This document shows positions 6,135-60,369 of a stretch of 64,000 bases of DNA, piece by piece. Under the pieces are notes generated by a model. That model made no database searches. It was given only the letters and a program-made list of their open reading frames with translations, and had not been told where the DNA came from. How positions within the stretch are numbered: the stretch's first letter is position 1; every line of letters begins with the position of its first letter. The DNA lies in NCBI GenBank assembly GCA_945861265.1, contig CAMAUC010000012.1:1-64000 (forward strand), in the 5' to 3' direction. The position numbers and the translations under genes are program-made. The stretch comes from Rhizobium sp. Q54. Lineage in GTDB: Bacteria > Pseudomonadota > Alphaproteobacteria > Rhizobiales > Xanthobacteraceae.

Positions 6135-6818
6135 ATGGCATCCGCACGCCCCGCCGGCACCAATCTATTGTCCGATCTGCCCGGCCGGCTGGCCGCGCCG
6201 CTTCTGGCCGGCGCGACCGCGCGCAATCTTGCCGCCGACGAAGTGCTGTTCATGGCGGGCGATCCAGGCGACGGGCTCTATCGCGTCGACGAAGGACTGC
6301 TGAAAGTCAGCATCGCGTCGGCCAGCGGCGCCGAACGCATCCTCGCCATTCTCGGGCCTGGTTCGATCGTCGGCGATCTCGCCATTATCGACGGCCTGCC
6401 GCGCTCGGCGACGGTGACGGCGCTACGCGATTGCAAGCTGCGCTTCCTCAGCCGCGCCGCGTTTGAAAAATTCGCCGCCGCCGAACCGGCGATCTATAAA
6501 TATCTCTTGAACGTCATGGCGGCGCGCTTGCGCGATACCGACGCGATCGTCGCGGCGGGAAGCTTTCTGCCGCTGAAGGGCCGCGTCGCGCGCGCGCTGC
6601 TTGATCTGGCGCACGCCTTCGGCAATGACGTCGGCTCAGGCCGCATCGTCATCCGGCAGAAACTCAGCCAGACCGATCTCGCCAGCATGGCCGGCATCGC
6701 CCGCGAAAACGTCAGCCGCATCATGAACGAATGGATCCGCGCCAAAGTGGTGACGCGGCTGTCCGGCTATTACTGTCTGGAAGATCAGAAAAAGCTGCAG
6801 CGCGAGATTGATGTGTAA
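6135..6818 (+). CDS. Crp/Fnr-family transcriptional regulator
   Basis: About 227 residues. Cyclic-nucleotide-binding-like beta barrel (LAADEVLFMAGDPGDGLYRV, then GPGSIVGDLAIIDGLPRSAT) followed by a helix-turn-helix whose recognition helix reads ARENVSRIM, with the E-x-x-S-R pattern of FNR/FixK-type DNA readers. No N-terminal cysteine cluster is present, so it is not a classic [4Fe-4S] FNR. ATG 6135 was chosen over 6087 from the family's usual length. It lies just downstream of two small genes with TGTGA-N6-TCACA boxes and may control them; that link is inferred. Confidence 0.85.
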   Translation: MASARPAGTNLLSDLPGRLAAPLLAGATARNLAADEVLFMAGDPGDGLYRVDEGLLKVSIASASGAERILAILGPGSIVGDLAIIDGLPRSATVTALRDCKLRFLSRAAFEKFAAAEPAIYKYLLNVMAARLRDTDAIVAAGSFLPLKGRVARALLDLAHAFGNDVGSGRIVIRQKLSQTDLASMAGIARENVSRIMNEWIRAKVVTRLSGYYCLEDQKKLQREIDV

Positions 6819-53054: not shown

Positions 53055-53068
53055 TTGACCTCGGTCAA
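53055..53068 (+). promoter_or_regulatory. FNR/FixK-type box upstream of the AMP phosphorylase operon
   Basis: TTGA-CCTCGG-TCAA, symmetric to TTGACC-TC-GGTCAA, 57 bases before the ATG. TAGGTT (53090-53095) lies about where a class II -10 element would be expected. It differs from the TGTGA-type boxes at 5367 and 5829, matching TTGA-N6-TCAA sites read by FNR/FixK proteins under low oxygen. Confidence 0.6.
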
Positions 53069-53124
53069 CCGTGACCGTCCTGCTAATGCTAGGTTCTTCC
53101 ACGATTTAGCCAGGAACCCGCCGG

Positions 53125-54663
53125 ATGACCGTCGCCAGATCTTCGCGTCCGCAACTCAAAATTCGCCGGATCAAACTCGATACGGGCCGCGAGAATGTCG
53201 TGGTGATCTCGAGCCGCTCGAAGGCGCTGCGGGCCGAGGTGTTTCGCGGGTTCAGCCGCGTGGAATTGCGGACAGGCGCCAAATCTCTGCTGGCGACTTT
53301 GCTGCTAACCGATGATGGCCTGGTCGGTGTCGATGAAATCGGCATGGCCGAACCGGCCTTCCGGCGCTTTGCCGAATCCGCGGGAACGCTGGTGACGGTC
53401 GCGCCGGCGGCGCGGCCAGCCAGCCTCGACGCGGTGCGCGCCAAAATCCAGGGCCGCTCGTTCAATGCCTCTGAAATCGGCGCCATCATTGATGACGTGA
53501 CCCACTACCGATATTCAGACATGGAAATCGCCGCCTTCCTGGTCGGCTCGGCGAGCTTCATGACCAGCGACGAGTTGCTGGCGCTGTCGCAAGCCATGGC
53601 GCAAGCCGGCACGCAATTGACCTGGGATCGGCCTATCGTGGTCGACAAGCATTGCATCGGCGGCATTCCCGGTAACCGCACGTCGATGATCGTGGTGCCG
53701 ATCGTCGCGGCGCACGGCCTGACAATTCCGAAGACCTCGTCGCGCGCCATCACCTCGCCGGCCGGAACCGCCGACACCATGGAAGTCCTGGCCCGCGTCG
53801 ACCTCGGCGTCGACGAGATGAAGCAGGTCGTACAGAGTTGCAACGGATGCCTGGTATGGGGCGGGCATGTGAATCTTTCGCCAGCCGACGACATCCTTAT
53901 CTCTGTCGAACGGCCGCTCAGTCTCGATACGCGCGAGCAGATGGTTGCCTCGATCATGTCGAAGAAAATCGCGGCCGGCGCCACCCATCTTTTGATCGAC
54001 CTGCCGGTCGGTCCGTCGGCGAAATTGACAACGGCAATGGACGCGATGCGGCTGCGCAAATTATTCGAATTCGTCGGCGATCACTTCGGTATCGCGGTCG
54101 AAGTGATTACCACGGACGGCCGCCAGCCGATCGGCAACGGCATCGGTCCGGTGCTGGAGGCCCAGGACGTCATGGCGGTATTGCGCAACGAACCCGATGC
54201 GCCGCGCGACCTGCGCGAGAAATCGTTGCGGCTGGCCGCGCATCTCATCGATTGCGATCCGCAATTGCGCGGCGGCACGGGCTATGCCCGCGCCCGCGAA
54301 TTGCTCGACAGCGGCGCCGCGCTCCGGCAGATGCACAAGATCATCGATGCGCAAGGCCCCTCGGGATGCAGTACCGATCTCGGCGCCTTGACCGCGGATA
54401 TCAAGGCGCCGCGCGACGGTGTCGTCGAAGCCATCGACTGCCTCTGCCTCAATCGGCTGGCGCGCAGCGCCGGGGCGCCGCTCGACAAGGGGGCGGGCAT
54501 CAAGCTGTTCAAGAAGATCGGCGATCGCGTCGTCCAAGGCGAGCCGCTTTATCGCATCCATGCCTTCGACGATTCTCAATTCGATCTCGCGGTCGCTTCG
54601 GCCGCGACAGCCAACGGTTATGTCATCGGTTTGCGCTCGGCCGCCGGCGAGTCGGCATTGTGA
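53125..54663 (+). CDS. Thymidine phosphorylase-family enzyme of the AMP phosphorylase type
   Basis: 512 residues. An N-terminal domain of about 90 residues ([20 protein letters not shown] and on) precedes the phosphorylase fold, as in archaeal AMP phosphorylase and unlike the 440-residue E. coli DeoA. Active-site blocks [40 protein letters not shown] and [12 protein letters not shown] are present. Archaeal homologues convert AMP and phosphate to adenine and ribose-1,5-bisphosphate. The nucleotide used by bacterial members is not settled. First gene of a three-gene overlap operon. Confidence 0.85.
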
Positions 54664-55580
54664 GTACTCATGTCCTTCAGTACCTGCCATCGTCAGCCCG
54701 CGACGCCGCGCGGCTGGCGGCGCGTCTTGGACTGGCCGCGCACGCCATCGAGGTTCATCACTTTCCGGACGGCGAATTGCGGGTCTCAGTTGGCCCAACA
54801 GCGGCAACAACAATCGTCTATGCGTCGCTCGATCAGCCGAACGACAAGCTGTTGACTTTGCTGTTCGCGGCGGAGGCGCTGCGGCGCGGTGGCGTCAGGC
54901 GCCTCGTGCTCGTGGCGCCTTATCTTTGTTACATGAGGCAGGATACGGCCTTTCATGCGGGCGAAGCGATCAGTCAGAAAGTCATGGGTCGATTGATCGC
55001 CGAGACGTTCGACCGGGTTATCACCGTCGACGCTCATCTGCACCGCACCAGGAATATTACGGATGTCTTCCCCGGGATCGAGGCGGTAAACCTGTCGGCG
55101 ATGCCGGCCATCGCCGATTTTTTGATGGCCAACAAGGTTGATGCTGGCACGATCATCGCCGGTCCCGACGCGGAATCCGAGCCGTGGGTGCGCGATCTCG
55201 CGCATCGTCTCGGCGCGGACTTCGCGATTGCGCGGAAGATCCGCCACGGCGACCGCTCGGTGGAAATGGCATTTTCCGATTCCGGAATATTCGCCGGCCG
55301 CCCGGTCGTCCTCGTCGACGATATCGTGTCGTCAGGCGGCACCGTATTAGCCTGCGCCAAAGCGCTCTTGGCCGCCGGCGCGAAATCGGTCGACGTCATC
55401 GTAACGCATGCGCTGTTCCCGCCGGAGATGATCGACACGTTCCTGGCAGCCGGGCTTCGGTCAGTTCGTTCGACTCATAGTGTGCCGCATCCGACTAATG
55501 CGATCGAACTCGACGCGCTTTTTTCCGACGCATTGCGCGGGGAGTTCGCGGAAGCGGGCACACAAGGAAGGGCATCATGA
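54660..55580 (+). CDS. Ribose-phosphate pyrophosphokinase (PRPP synthetase) paralogue
   Basis: 306 residues, GTG start overlapping the previous stop (GTGA). Prs fold: [13 protein letters not shown], the ATP-site [17 protein letters not shown], metal-binding VDAHLHR, flexible-loop [11 protein letters not shown] and PRPP-binding [15 protein letters not shown]. Makes PRPP and AMP from ribose-5-phosphate and ATP. It is divergent from the housekeeping Prs in style. Coupling to an AMP phosphorylase-type enzyme suggests a nucleotide salvage or energy-saving loop. Confidence 0.88.
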
Positions 55581-57175
55581 GCGTAACCATTCGATTCTGT
55601 GGCGCGGCGCGCACCGTAACCGGCTCATGCTACCTGTTCGAGACGCCTTCTGGCCGTATGCTGGTTGATTGCGGGATGTTTCAGGGGTCGAAGACATTGA
55701 AGGCGCTGAACTACGGCGCCTTTCCTTTCAATCCGGCAGACATCCGCGTAGTGCTGTTGACGCATGCGCATATCGACCACAGCGGCCTGTTGCCGAAATT
55801 AATCGCCGACGGCTTCCGTGGCCTTATCCTGGCGACGCGCGGCACGATCGATCTGTGCTCCTATATGTTGCCCGACGCGGGCAGCATCCAGGAATCGGAG
55901 GTCGCTGCGCTCAACCGGCGCAATGCGGCGCGCGGTCGCGCCGAAGTCAGCCCGATCTATACGCAAGCCGACGCTCTTGCTTCGCTCGCGGCATTTCAGC
56001 CGGTCGACTATGACAAATGGGTCGACGTCATGCCGGGCGTTCGCGCCCGCTATTGGAATGCCGGCCATCTGCTCGGCTCGGCGTCGATTGAAATCGAATT
56101 CGCCGGGCAGGGTGCGTCGGGGCAGCCGCTTCGAATGCTGATGTCGGGCGATATCGGTCCGGACGCCAAGTTGCTGCAACCGCTGCCCGACGCACCGGCC
56201 GGACTGGACTATGTCGTTTCGGAATCGACATATGGCCATGTCGACCGCCCGCTGGTCACGAGCGCGACGCGGCGCGCACATCTGGCCGAGCAGGTGCGCG
56301 TCGCGCACGCCGTCAACGGGCCGCTGCTGATCCCGGCCTTTGCGGTCGAACGCACGCAAGAACTGATTATTGATCTCGTCGACTTGATGGAACGCGGCGA
56401 AGTCCCGGCTGCGCCGATCTTTCTCGATTCGCCTTTGGCCATTCGCGCCACCGAAGTGTTCCGGCAACACGCATCGGCGCTCAACGCCGATATCGACGTC
56501 GCGCGCGTGCTGGCGTCGCCGCATTTGCGCTTCACCGAAACGGTGCCGGAAAGCAAGGCAATCGAGAGGCTGACCGGCTTTCACATCGTCATCGCCGGCA
56601 GCGGCATGTGCGATGCGGGCCGCATCCGGCATCATCTCAAGCGCTGGCTCTGGCACAAGAACGCAACGGTTCTTTTGTCCGGTTTTCAGGCACAGGGCAC
56701 GCTCGGCCGCTTTCTCGAGGAAGGCGCCAAGGCGGTCCGCATCCAGGGCGATGAAATCAAGGTGGCGGCGCGGATTGCCTCGTTCGATGAATATTCAGGT
56801 CACGCCGATGGCCCTGAGCTGGCGCGCTGGATCGCGTCGCGCCGGCCCATCGCGCGCGGCGTCTTCCTGGTGCATGGCGAGGAGCCGTCCATAGCCGGGC
56901 TTGCCGAACGGATCGGCGAACGCATCGTGCCGGCTGCCTTGGTCTTTCGTCCCGTCCTCGACGATATTTATGAGCTGACGACCGCGGCGCCCACCCTGCT
57001 CGATGGCAAGCAGCGCCGTCGCCTGGCGCCGGAAGCGGTGGTCGCGCTCGACTGGCACAATGACATGTCGGAACTCGTGCTCGACATTAACGAACGAATC
57101 GAGGCCGCCGCCGACGATCGTGCCCGTGGTGTCATTATCCGGCGGCTGCGCCGTGCGCTCAGCGCCGAGGATTGA
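55577..57175 (+). CDS. Beta-CASP metallo-beta-lactamase-fold RNA nuclease
   Basis: 532 residues, ATG overlapping the prs stop (ATGA). MBL domain with HxHxDH in LLTHAHIDHSGLLPKL, further metal ligands in YWNAGHLLGSASIEIEF and MSGDIGPDAK; beta-CASP insertion and the C-terminal motifs SGFQAQGTLGRFLEEGA and DEYSGHADGPELARW. Family members (CPSF73/YSH1-like) are exo- or endoribonucleases. Last gene of the AMP phosphorylase operon; a CTTGCCG/CGGCAAG hairpin (57191-57220) follows without a T-run. Confidence 0.9.
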   Translation: MSVTIRFCGAARTVTGSCYLFETPSGRMLVDCGMFQGSKTLKALNYGAFPFNPADIRVVLLTHAHIDHSGLLPKLIADGFRGLILATRGTIDLCSYMLPDAGSIQESEVAALNRRNAARGRAEVSPIYTQADALASLAAFQPVDYDKWVDVMPGVRARYWNAGHLLGSASIEIEFAGQGASGQPLRMLMSGDIGPDAKLLQPLPDAPAGLDYVVSESTYGHVDRPLVTSATRRAHLAEQVRVAHAVNGPLLIPAFAVERTQELIIDLVDLMERGEVPAAPIFLDSPLAIRATEVFRQHASALNADIDVARVLASPHLRFTETVPESKAIERLTGFHIVIAGSGMCDAGRIRHHLKRWLWHKNATVLLSGFQAQGTLGRFLEEGAKAVRIQGDEIKVAARIASFDEYSGHADGPELARWIASRRPIARGVFLVHGEEPSIAGLAERIGERIVPAALVFRPVLDDIYELTTAAPTLLDGKQRRRLAPEAVVALDWHNDMSELVLDINERIEAAADDRARGVIIRRLRRALSAED

Positions 57176-57393
57176 CCGAAATAGCGCGATCTTGCCGGCG
57201 TCGGTTTGGCGGTCGGCAAGAAAGCATGTCAATTCCGGCGTTTTTTGACCGGCTAGTCTTTCTTAACTATCCCCTAGCGTAATCCCCGAGAATCCGCGCA
57301 TTCGCCGTCACGTTTCGGCAATTGTTATGTTTTGCACGTTACCGATGGAGCAGAAAAACAGACGTCTTCCGCGTCTGGTCGGCTGGAGTCGGC

Positions 57394-60369
57394 ATGGGGG
57401 AAGCGCTTCTCACGGATAAGGCCGCTGCGTTCGCGATTGGCGCGATCCCGCCGGGCGCGCTTATGGCGGCGGCCATGTTGTCGTTCCTGGCCATCGGCGC
57501 CATTGCATTCCTCATCGCCAGGCTGACCGGGCGCAACGCCTCTTCGATTGGCGCAGATGGCGAGCGGCTGCGCGCCATCGCGCTCAACAGCATGGCGCAG
57601 GGTATCGTCATGTTCGACGCCGCCGAGCGGGCCGTTGTCTGGAACGAACGCTATCTCGAACTCTCGGGACTGAGCGGCGATTTCATGCAAGCAGGCCGGA
57701 CGTTCTGTGAAATCCTGCGGGCACGCCAAAGCATCCACACATTTCAACTCGATATCGAGACCTATCGCCGCGACCTTCTCGCCGATATCGGCCTTGGCAA
57801 GACCAAAAGCGTTATCCTCGACGGGCCCGATGGACGCTCTTGCCACGTCGTCATCGCTCCGATGGCGGCCGGCGGCTGGATTACCACCCACGAAGATATC
57901 ACCGAGCAGGTTGCCGCCAAACGGCTCATCGAAGATCAGAAGATGCACCTCGATGCGGCCATTTCGAATATGCCGCAAGGTCTCTGCATGTTCGACAAAG
58001 AGCAGCGGCTGATCGTCTGCAACAGGCAATATGCCGATCTGTACAAACTGTCCGACGAACTGTCCAAACCGGGCACGCCGCTGCGGTCGATATTGAGACA
58101 TTGGGCGCAGGCGATATGCGGGCCGGACGAACTGGAAGCCTATGTTGAGGATCGCCTGGGCAAAGTCGGCCAGGGCAACGACTACCAGATCGTCAATCGT
58201 CTGCCTGATGGCCGCTACATCGCGGTCGTCCATCAATCCATGCCGGGTGGCGGCTGGGTATCCACGCATGAAGACGTCACCGACGCCAAGCGCCGCGAAG
58301 AATCGTTCCGGCTGTTGTTCGAGAACAGCCCGATGCCGATGTGGGTGATGGATCGTCGCAGCCTGAGATTTCTGGCGGTCAACGACGCTGTTCTCGCGCG
58401 CTACGGCTACAGCCGCGAACAGTTCATGGCGATGACGGTGCCCGATATGCGCGCGCCGGAAGAGCGGGCGGCATTCGCCGAGTACCTGCGGTCTTTGCCC
58501 GATATCCAGTTGGACGCCCGCGTCGGCAAGCATCGCAAGGCGGACGGCACCGAGATCGACGTCGAAGTCTATTCCAGGGTTTTGACCTATAACGGGCAGG
58601 CGGCGCGCATCACCGTCGTGCACGATGTCACCGAGGCCAAACATGCGGCCGACGAACTCAGTCGCACCAAGAAATTCCTCGATACGGTCATCGAGCACGT
58701 GCCACTGCCGATTGTGGTACGCGACGTTTCCGCAGTGGGTAACGACGCGCGTGACGCGCGCTTCTACCTGTTCAACCGCGCCTATGAGGAATTAACTGGA
58801 GATGCGCGCGACAGTCTGATTGGCAAGACTGTTGATCAATTGTATCCGGCGGATCGCGCGGCGCTTATTATCAATGCCGACAATGAAGCGATGCGTTCCG
58901 GTCACGTTATCGAAGTTCAGGAGCACGCCATCCAGACGGCGCGCAACGGCACAAGGCTGGTCACCGGGAAAAAGACCGTCATCAGAAACGTCGACGGCAA
59001 GCCGCAATATCTGCTCACCGTGCTCGACGACGTCACCGAGCGCCGTCAGGCGCAGCAGCGCATCGCCTATCTGGCGCATAACGATTCGTTGACCGATCTG
59101 CCGAACCGGGCGACCTTCGTCGAATATCTCGACACGACGCTCGTCGATGCCGCCGGGAGCGGCGAGCCATTCGCCATTCTGTGTGTCGACCTGGACCACT
59201 TCAAGGAGGCCAACGACATTTACGGCCATCTCATTGGCGACCGCTTGCTGCGCGAGGCCGCGCGCCGGCTTTACGCGGCGGCCCGCGGCCAGTTCCTGGC
59301 GCGCGTGGGTGGCGACGAGTTCACTCTGGTGTTGACGCATGGCGCGCAGCCGGAAGGCGCTTTGGCGCTCGGTGAGCGACTGTTGGCGGCGTTCAAACCC
59401 GCGTTTGATATTGACGGCCAACAAATGCAAATCGGCCTGACCATCGGCGGTGCGATCTATCCGGCCGACGGCGACAGCGCCACCATCCTGATCGCCAACG
59501 CCGACGCGGCACTCTACCGGGCCAAGGCCGAAGCGCGCGGATCGCTGCGCTTGTTCGACGCCAGACTCGGCGCGCAATTGCACGAGCGCCGCGATCTGCA
59601 GGCGGACTTGCAAGGCGCCATCGCCCGCGACGAAATTTTCCTGCACTACCAGCCGCAGCTGAAAGTTTCGACCGGCGAGATCACCGGCTTTGAATCGCTG
59701 GTGCGCTGGCAATGCCCGAAGCGCGGCCTGGTGCCGCCGGGCAGTTTCATTTCGATCGCCGAGGAGACCGGGCTGATCGGTCCGCTCGGCGACTGGATCC
59801 TGCGCGAGGCTTGCCGAGAGGCGGCATCGTGGCCGACACCGCTCAAGGTCGCGGTCAATATCTCGCCGGTCCAGTTTCATGCCGGCGATCTGGCCGCTCA
59901 GGTTCACATGGTCCTGCTGGAGACGGGCCTTGCCCCACACCGGTTGGAGCTGGAAATCACCGAAGGCGTGCTGATCGACGACTTCCAGCGCGCGATCGCG
60001 ATATTGCGCAAGCTGAAATCGCTCGGCGTCGGCATCGCCATGGACGACTTCGGCAAGGGCTACTCCTCCTTGTCCTATTTGCACTCGTTCGGCTTCGACA
60101 AGATCAAGATCGACCGCAGCTTCATCGGCGATCTCGAGCAGAACCATCATTCGATGGCGATCGTGCGTGCGATCATCACCCTCGGCCACAGTCTCGACGT
60201 GCCGGTGCTGGCCGAAGGCGTCGAAACCGAGAGCCAGCGGCTGTTCCTCGAACGGGAGGGTTGCGACGACGTGCAGGGCTACCTGACCGGACGGCCGCTG
60301 CCGATTGAAGCCTATGCCGCCGCGACCGGCCGGCCCGCGCCGCTCAAATCCCGGGCTACTAGGAATTAG
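57394..60369 (+). CDS. PAS-PAS-PAS-PAS-GGDEF-EAL cyclic-di-GMP enzyme
   Basis: 991 residues from ATG 57394 (GGAG before it). One transmembrane helix (about residues 17-44), two tandem PAS domains of the GIVMFDAAERAVVWN / GLCMFDKEQRLIVCN type, two more PAS domains, GGDEF near residue 638 (ARVGGDEFTLVL) and EAL from about 736. The EAL signature is ESL in GFESLVRW, with DDFGKGYSSLSYLHSFG, KIDRSFIGDL and LAEGVETE, so both cyclase and phosphodiesterase sites look intact. Membrane-tethered regulator of c-di-GMP. Confidence 0.93.
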   Translation: MGEALLTDKAAAFAIGAIPPGALMAAAMLSFLAIGAIAFLIARLTGRNASSIGADGERLRAIALNSMAQGIVMFDAAERAVVWNERYLELSGLSGDFMQAGRTFCEILRARQSIHTFQLDIETYRRDLLADIGLGKTKSVILDGPDGRSCHVVIAPMAAGGWITTHEDITEQVAAKRLIEDQKMHLDAAISNMPQGLCMFDKEQRLIVCNRQYADLYKLSDELSKPGTPLRSILRHWAQAICGPDELEAYVEDRLGKVGQGNDYQIVNRLPDGRYIAVVHQSMPGGGWVSTHEDVTDAKRREESFRLLFENSPMPMWVMDRRSLRFLAVNDAVLARYGYSREQFMAMTVPDMRAPEERAAFAEYLRSLPDIQLDARVGKHRKADGTEIDVEVYSRVLTYNGQAARITVVHDVTEAKHAADELSRTKKFLDTVIEHVPLPIVVRDVSAVGNDARDARFYLFNRAYEELTGDARDSLIGKTVDQLYPADRAALIINADNEAMRSGHVIEVQEHAIQTARNGTRLVTGKKTVIRNVDGKPQYLLTVLDDVTERRQAQQRIAYLAHNDSLTDLPNRATFVEYLDTTLVDAAGSGEPFAILCVDLDHFKEANDIYGHLIGDRLLREAARRLYAAARGQFLARVGGDEFTLVLTHGAQPEGALALGERLLAAFKPAFDIDGQQMQIGLTIGGAIYPADGDSATILIANADAALYRAKAEARGSLRLFDARLGAQLHERRDLQADLQGAIARDEIFLHYQPQLKVSTGEITGFESLVRWQCPKRGLVPPGSFISIAEETGLIGPLGDWILREACREAASWPTPLKVAVNISPVQFHAGDLAAQVHMVLLETGLAPHRLELEITEGVLIDDFQRAIAILRKLKSLGVGIAMDDFGKGYSSLSYLHSFGFDKIKIDRSFIGDLEQNHHSMAIVRAIITLGHSLDVPVLAEGVETESQRLFLEREGCDDVQGYLTGRPLPIEAYAAATGRPAPLKSRATRN

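Follow-up and report, generated by a model that had tools for sequence, protein, structure and literature searches.

What is known of ribose-1,5-bisphosphate (R15P) metabolism comes mostly from archaea and, in bacteria, from the R15P kinase PhnN. PMC9700705 and PMC8376864 describe an archaeal enzyme from T. kodakarensis that converts nucleoside monophosphates (NMPs) to R15P, and the former follows archaeal R15P into RuBisCO or a non-carboxylating route. Here, we analyse a three-gene operon of Rhizobium sp. Q54, which lies within a 64,000-nucleotide stretch of DNA (the window; contig CAMAUC010000012.1, positions 1 to 64,000, here contig C12) from a 3.75-Mb genome that is 95.7% complete. Gene A (53125-54663, plus strand, 512 aa) encodes an enzyme of the NMP (adenosine monophosphate, AMP) phosphorylase type, gene B (54660-55580, plus strand, 306 aa, GTG start) a paralogue of phosphoribosyl pyrophosphate (PRPP) synthetase (Prs) of subfamily PRK07199, and gene C (55577-57175, plus strand, 532 aa) a beta-CASP ribonuclease of metallo-beta-lactamase fold. 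We propose, with a probability of roughly 0.55, that this operon constitutes a bacterial counterpart of the archaeal NMP-phosphorylase route that works without RuBisCO and in which B acts on R15P.

The family of A is established by profile scores, a structural match and phylogeny. A exceeds the cut-offs of TIGR02645 (715.6 bits, cut-off 434.6) and PRK04350 (701.4, cut-off 434), whereas every thymidine or pyrimidine phosphorylase model stays under its own (193.4/269, 186.6/409.05, 144.4/559 and 138.8/570.7). Its best PDB match is 4ga5, where residues 11-494 of A align with residues 3-485 of the entry, N-terminal domain included. We take 4ga5 to be the T. kodakarensis AMP phosphorylase; the title of the entry says putative thymidine phosphorylase. 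A FastTree phylogeny was built from 83 sequences, namely 60 bacterial A, 4 archaeal AMP phosphorylases and 19 DeoA; it took in 11 of 80 Rhizobiales loci and left out the partial loci L161 and L163 and the fusion L227, and the DeoA locus L182 was dropped. The bacterial A proteins form one clade (support 0.997) that is joined with the four archaeal enzymes (0.949), with all DeoA outside. Profiles and tree thus place A in a bacterial sister group to the archaeal AMP (NMP) phosphorylases and not among the DeoA thymidine phosphorylases; A shares with T. kodakarensis TK0352 the extra N-terminal domain and the active-site blocks over 484 aligned residues. Both the AMP-phosphorylase type and the additional N-terminal domain had been proposed in a first-pass annotation of the window, and both stand.

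If A were instead a thymidine or pyrimidine nucleoside phosphorylase, as annotated, the operon would be one of plain nucleoside salvage. The NCBI label of A is indeed thymidine phosphorylase family, and its SIMSKK block, a base-site motif, is largely common to DeoA, but the DeoA and pyrimidine phosphorylase models fall far short of their cut-offs (193 against 269 and 187 against 409), the A clade is separate from DeoA and relatives of A are fused to an R15P kinase. On profile scores and tree we reject the thymidine phosphorylase identity, and we consider plain nucleoside salvage very improbable.

The fused relatives also bear on the product of A. At four loci, PhnN and A are joined in a single frame directly 3' of nadC, with nadC and the fusion spanning L119:7619-10614 in Variovorax sp. 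SRS16, L226:6125-9091 in Pacificitalea manganoxidans, L227:6148-8824 in Paraburkholderia sp. 22B1P and L162:7931-10580 in the survey genome G249. The Variovorax fusion clears both the PhnN (179.7, cut-off 156) and the TIGR02645 (445.5, cut-off 434.6) models; the Paraburkholderia fusion was examined solely as one open frame of 665 codons. The three fusions put in the tree are all nested within the bacterial A clade, and because natural PhnN fusions sit inside this clade we read A as an R15P-forming NMP phosphorylase. The T. kodakarensis enzyme forms R15P and the fused relatives would feed an R15P kinase, which makes R15P the most economical product to assume for A. A is therefore probably an NMP phosphorylase that yields R15P and free base from NMP and phosphate. 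B is absent from the 15.7-19.9 kb stretches around the four fusion loci and, for G249, from the whole genome.

Compared with the PhnN and NadC of quinolinate/NAD salvage clusters, the fusions tie an A-family enzyme to the conversion of R15P to PRPP, and the nadC loci that carry them could house a PRPP-recycling cycle leading from quinolinate to nicotinate. In Variovorax, nadC and phnN adjoin bug27 according to PMC11452294, in whose text neither 'thymidine' nor 'phosphorylase' was found. In L119 and L226, nadC and the fusion have tricarboxylate- or TRAP-type transporter genes beside them. On a haloarchaeal plasmid (L125:4538-8978), an AMP phosphorylase gene has a phosphoribosyltransferase-family gene and the gene of a lyxose/mannose-type isomerase nearby.

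The association of A with B was followed across 299 evenly drawn Pseudomonadota genomes, counting A over cut-off and B at E 1e-60 or better. A is present in 34 genomes and B in 34, the two sets being identical and covering 15 families; B is over its profile cut-off in 33 of them, that of G285 scoring 299.6 bits against 322. Four genomes of the window's own family carry both genes and five carry neither. The 33 A- and B-bearing genomes besides the window's own (two of which give two loci each), together with G249 and G255, provide 37 survey loci, where B is on the same strand as A in 34 and separated from it by at most 100 bp in 31; nearby Prs or C was found at 0/20 DeoA control loci. Two survey genomes have two A and two B each, one B of G259 being cut by a contig end, and L161 (G236) is a 5-kb contig end, with its B on a different contig next to a fragment of A. 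Inclusion of G249 and G255, where A is below cut-off (a partial match of 404 bits in G255), brings the A-bearing genomes to 36; these two are the ones without B, and both have PhnN. In Azospirillum ramasamyi, A and C occupy one plasmid and B (321.5 bits, just below cut-off) another.

Within the window, the A/B and B/C junctions each overlap by 4 bases (GTGA and ATGA). This gene order with short overlaps is repeated among 80 Rhizobiales relatives gathered in a second, denser search, B being detected in 68 of them; the nearest relatives of A found come from uncultured Rhizobiales/Bradyrhizobiaceae (97% identity), followed by Pseudolabrys (89%) and then others. The operon is real and conserved beyond chance. 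The overlapping triplet behind an FNR/FixK-type box that the first-pass annotation had described is indeed present, and its suggested coupling of A to a Prs paralogue is borne out by the identical sets and by the short distances at 31/37 loci. Linkage across genomes, whose absence the annotation had named as a refutation, holds for A and B in the 299-genome draw and meets exceptions among the Rhizobiales loci.

B matches NF005537 (PRK07199) with 391 bits (cut-off 322), and 47 B sequences form a clade of their own (support 0.984). The Prs of Methanocaldococcus is its best PDB match, and this protein and human Prs align over most of B. When B is compared with 20 canonical Prs encoded in the same genomes, 22 positions are common to both, including the equivalents, matched by motif, of E. 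coli F35, D37, H131, D170, D220, D221 and T228, which bind nucleotide and ribose phosphate according to PMC9232217. Four positions set B apart: E172, two residues after the Mg/ribose aspartate D170, is found in 47/47 B where the canonical enzymes have G in 20/20; R129 in 47/47 replaces a canonical Q (20/20) and H128 in 47/47 a canonical G, D or T (12, 7 and 1), both following H126; and W176 in 46/47 replaces R (20/20). The position of E. coli R99, a residue in contact with the beta-phosphate of the nucleotide (PMC9232217), is R in 20/20 canonical Prs, whereas in B, matched by motif spacing, it is variable (R 10, K 9, T 8 and I 7 of 47) and is T in the window. Relative to the known Prs classes (archaeal class III and the bacterial classes described in PMC13252144), B keeps most catalytic and ligand residues but forms a separate clade with the signatures HLHR (111/112 sequences) and GPDxE (112/112). 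Two Azospirillum B outside these 112 contain GPDxE and are without the HLHR pattern.

We suggest the following route. RNA would be degraded to nucleotides by C and other RNases, and A would use phosphate to split NMPs into base and R15P, a step to which family, clade and PhnN fusions point strongly. B would then be the dedicated next enzyme and use R15P. Our leading guess for B is a phosphoryl transfer between C1 of R15P and an adenine nucleotide. It may convert R15P and ATP to PRPP and ADP, which is the job of PhnN, a protein of a different family that is not over cut-off in the window's genome; alternatively, it may convert R15P and ADP or AMP to ribose-5-phosphate (R5P) and ATP or ADP, with R5P entering the pentose phosphate pathway or going to phosphoketolase in genomes that have it. 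Physiologically, ribose and its phosphate would be saved from RNA when lack of oxygen, or copper, blocks respiration.

The same residues allow for another role of B. A may make R15P while B works as a normal PRPP synthetase under altered regulation, producing PRPP from R5P so that phosphoribosyltransferases can re-use the bases released by A, with R15P going to PhnN, a phosphatase or an unknown enzyme. Besides the 22 common positions and the alignment of Methanocaldococcus and human Prs along most of B, this is favoured by the location of some of the differing residues of B at the allosteric nucleotide site of E. coli Prs (E133 region, matched by motif; PMC9232217). Against this, the window's genome already contains a second Prs-type gene (C2:80986, 149 bits), a spare PRPP synthase is not expected to come and go with A (34/34) and PhnN is not over cut-off in 28/36 A-bearing genomes. 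We regard such a division of labour as unlikely, and hold the R15P role of B at modest confidence because each fact about B also fits an ordinary, differently regulated PRPP synthase.

Other enzymes that could receive R15P were searched for in the same genomes. The R15P isomerase model TIGR00511 scores 132.1 bits in the window's genome, under its cut-off of 314.1, and is over cut-off in 0/36 A-bearing genomes; weaker matches, which we take to be a related isomerase, occur in 19/36. RuBisCO gave no match in the window's genome, 95.7% complete, and the archaeal-type route of isomerase plus RuBisCO is rejected there. The first-pass annotation had reported both enzymes missing, and their lack extends genome-wide. 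In place of this archaeal pentose bisphosphate pathway, the bacterial A is coupled to a PRPP-synthetase paralogue. In the window's genome no PhnN clears the cut-off, the sole match (48.9 bits, cut-off 156) reading as a guanylate kinase behind a yicC-like gene (named by eye), and PhnN is over cut-off in 8/36 A-bearing genomes. Because the window's genome is without PhnN, R15P isomerase, RuBisCO and phosphoketolase over cut-off, B is the best candidate for a user of R15P.

Some relatives of A are placed among copper- and metal-resistance genes, and near some of these lie a divergent phosphoketolase, acetate kinase, type II GAPDH, adenylate kinase or polyphosphate kinase 2. Six of the ten A-bearing genomes with a phosphoketolase have it at most 21 kb from A, and the link between phosphoketolase and A is suggestive. 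On plasmids, A, C and a Prs are accompanied by a divergent family that resembles phosphoketolase and bears the annotation 'xylulose 5-phosphate 3-epimerase' (L121:5257-7626, L117:8254-10638, L229:7896-10376, L231:7968-10355, L232:7968-10337 and L257:18120-18762). Several of these plasmids have copper or metal genes close by, and phosphoketolase profiles match the L121 copy only weakly (137 bits; Pfam XFP 135.5 bits). We tentatively consider a stronger version of our proposal, which is somewhat doubtful: B would be a novel enzyme in which the PRPP-synthetase fold has been turned to R15P, and would form with A a RuBisCO-free bacterial pentose bisphosphate pathway that takes RNA to usable ribose phosphate and, with the help of phosphoketolase and acetate kinase, on to ATP when oxygen or copper stops respiration.

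Energy enzymes near A also fit a control of the adenylate pool, close to the route of the first-pass annotation, whereby A drains AMP at low energy, B runs in reverse (PRPP and AMP to R5P and ATP) and R15P is a by-product. Adenylate kinase together with carbamate kinase, acetate kinase, polyphosphate kinase 2 or phosphoketolase is indeed found near some relatives, and low-oxygen induction is published. Nevertheless, the T. kodakarensis enzyme favours cytidine or guanosine monophosphate (CMP or GMP) over AMP, by reports quoted in PMC8376864, and an interconversion of PRPP and AMP needs R15P to be turned into PRPP, for which the known route, PhnN, is not over cut-off in 28/36 genomes. We judge this explanation improbable.

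Several observations weigh against our proposal that B acts on the R15P made by A. Bacterial A differs from the archaeal AMP phosphorylases in falling below the cut-off of their equivalog TIGR03327 (498.9 bits, cut-off 535), and B, which keeps most canonical PRPP-synthetase residues, could by its sequence simply make PRPP. Some RuBisCO is present in 18/36 A-bearing genomes, and PhnN and B occur together in 6/8 PhnN-bearing genomes, so they are not strictly exclusive. The exact-match probability of the A and B sets (P = 1e-45) assumes independence, which it overstates because 11/34 of the A- and B-bearing genomes belong to a single family. Strict pairing, true in the 299-genome draw, is broken in the denser search: B was not seen at 12 of the 80 Rhizobiales loci, of which L014 is cut by a contig end and retains part of B, while the other 11 have C straight after A and no trace of B in their stretches. 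Likewise, Variovorax boronicumulans L124 has A with no B nearby. As for phosphoketolase, none is over cut-off in the window's genome; the association with A is weak (10/34 A-bearing against 37/265 other genomes, Fisher P 0.041), and proximity within about 10 kb is not significant (5/37 survey against 0/20 DeoA control loci, P 0.15). Acetate kinase is near A at 4/37 survey against 0/20 control loci (P 0.29), and an Alteromonas plasmid has a phosphoketolase-like gene and acetate kinase with no A in 18 kb.

Regulation is described for Bradyrhizobium diazoefficiens, where low-oxygen, FixK2-dependent expression of a matching operon is already published. Its genes bll3117-bll3116-bll3115 encode the same three products in the predicted operon order and are known from expression data, no function being stated in the accessible portions of PMC6515984 and PMC9104804. 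At 0.5% O2, the proteins rise by log2 values of 2.1, 4.4 and 2.9 and the transcripts 5.1-, 7.7- and 15.4-fold (Table 2 of PMC6515984), whereas deletion of fixK2 lowers bll3117 6.6-fold and bll3115 30.6-fold (Table 2 of PMC9104804). The latter table places a FixK2 box, ATGATCTGGGTCAA, at -74 of the operon, and has further entries for phosphoketolase bll2518 and acetate kinase bll2517. The FixK2 direct-target column of PMC6515984, by contrast, shows '-' for all three genes. We find the letters ATGATCTGGGTCAA again in many Rhizobiales relatives.

In the window, the palindromic FNR/FixK-type box TTGACCTCGGTCAA (53055-53068, no strand assigned) is separated from the ATG of A by 56 bases and matches TTGAYC-N2-GRTCAA at 12/12 positions, a score attained by 0/2000 dinucleotide shuffles of the 200 bp upstream. 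The ccoN gene (cbb3 oxidase) of the same genome is preceded by the same box type and shares a contig stretch with a FixK-like regulator with recognition helix ETVSR. The genome thus combines the box with a FixK-type regulator, as expected of an FNR/FixK regulon, and by analogy with B. diazoefficiens such a regulator probably switches on the window's operon at low oxygen. Boxes with at least 10/12 matches precede A in 58/79 Rhizobiales loci (those of the 80 with enough upstream DNA, mutually related and not independent), against 1.65 expected from shuffles, but in 3/37 survey loci, against 0.85 expected, so that low-oxygen control looks like a lineage trait. The low-oxygen control put forward in the first-pass annotation therefore applies to close relatives, as published for B. 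diazoefficiens, and is not supported as a general setting, some relatives lying in copper islands; we reject the idea that the FNR box belongs to the module in all lineages. The ccoN stretch (G000:C39, L205:3267-12910) holds, with the ccoN-type gene, its FNR-type box and the FixK-like regulator, a pyruvate:ferredoxin-type oxidoreductase and a CBS-BON protein. A Crp/FNR-family helix-turn-helix domain is encoded at 6579-6803 of the window (PF13545, 59 bits), with no tie to the operon made.

C contains the Pfam domains Beta-Casp, RMMBL and Lactamase_B and the motifs HAHIDH63, AGH162, SGD190, SESTYG215, SGH407 and HGE433, which we take to be the metal motifs of the beta-CASP family. Its best PDB match is the beta-CASP RNase TTHA0252 (C residues 8-446, E 1.4e-63), beyond which C has about 85 extra C-terminal residues. 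It stays under the cut-offs of the aCPSF1 (221.5 against 580.2) and type VII Cas14 (306.1 against 800) equivalogs. C is present at 17/37 survey loci and is an optional member of the operon, rather than the essential one that the first-pass annotation had supposed. The loci with A followed by C and no B, mostly of Bradyrhizobium, are L037, L039, L048, L049, L050, L055, L063, L067, L068, L072 and L081. On the 3' side of the operon, a large open reading frame (57322-60369 of the window) encodes what by eye resembles a PAS-GGDEF-EAL protein.

The PMC literature searched yielded no biochemical study of bacterial A or B, a search with subscription papers mostly outside its scope, so absence is unproven. 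New here are the tight co-occurrence of A and B, the PhnN fusions pointing to R15P, the lack of further enzymes that use R15P in the genome of the window, and the residues specific to B. If our proposal is true, A together with a dedicated Prs paralogue, found in 34/299 genomes, would constitute a third fate of R15P, and would provide a function for an operon that depends strongly on FixK2 in a model symbiont and for genes carried on many plasmids.

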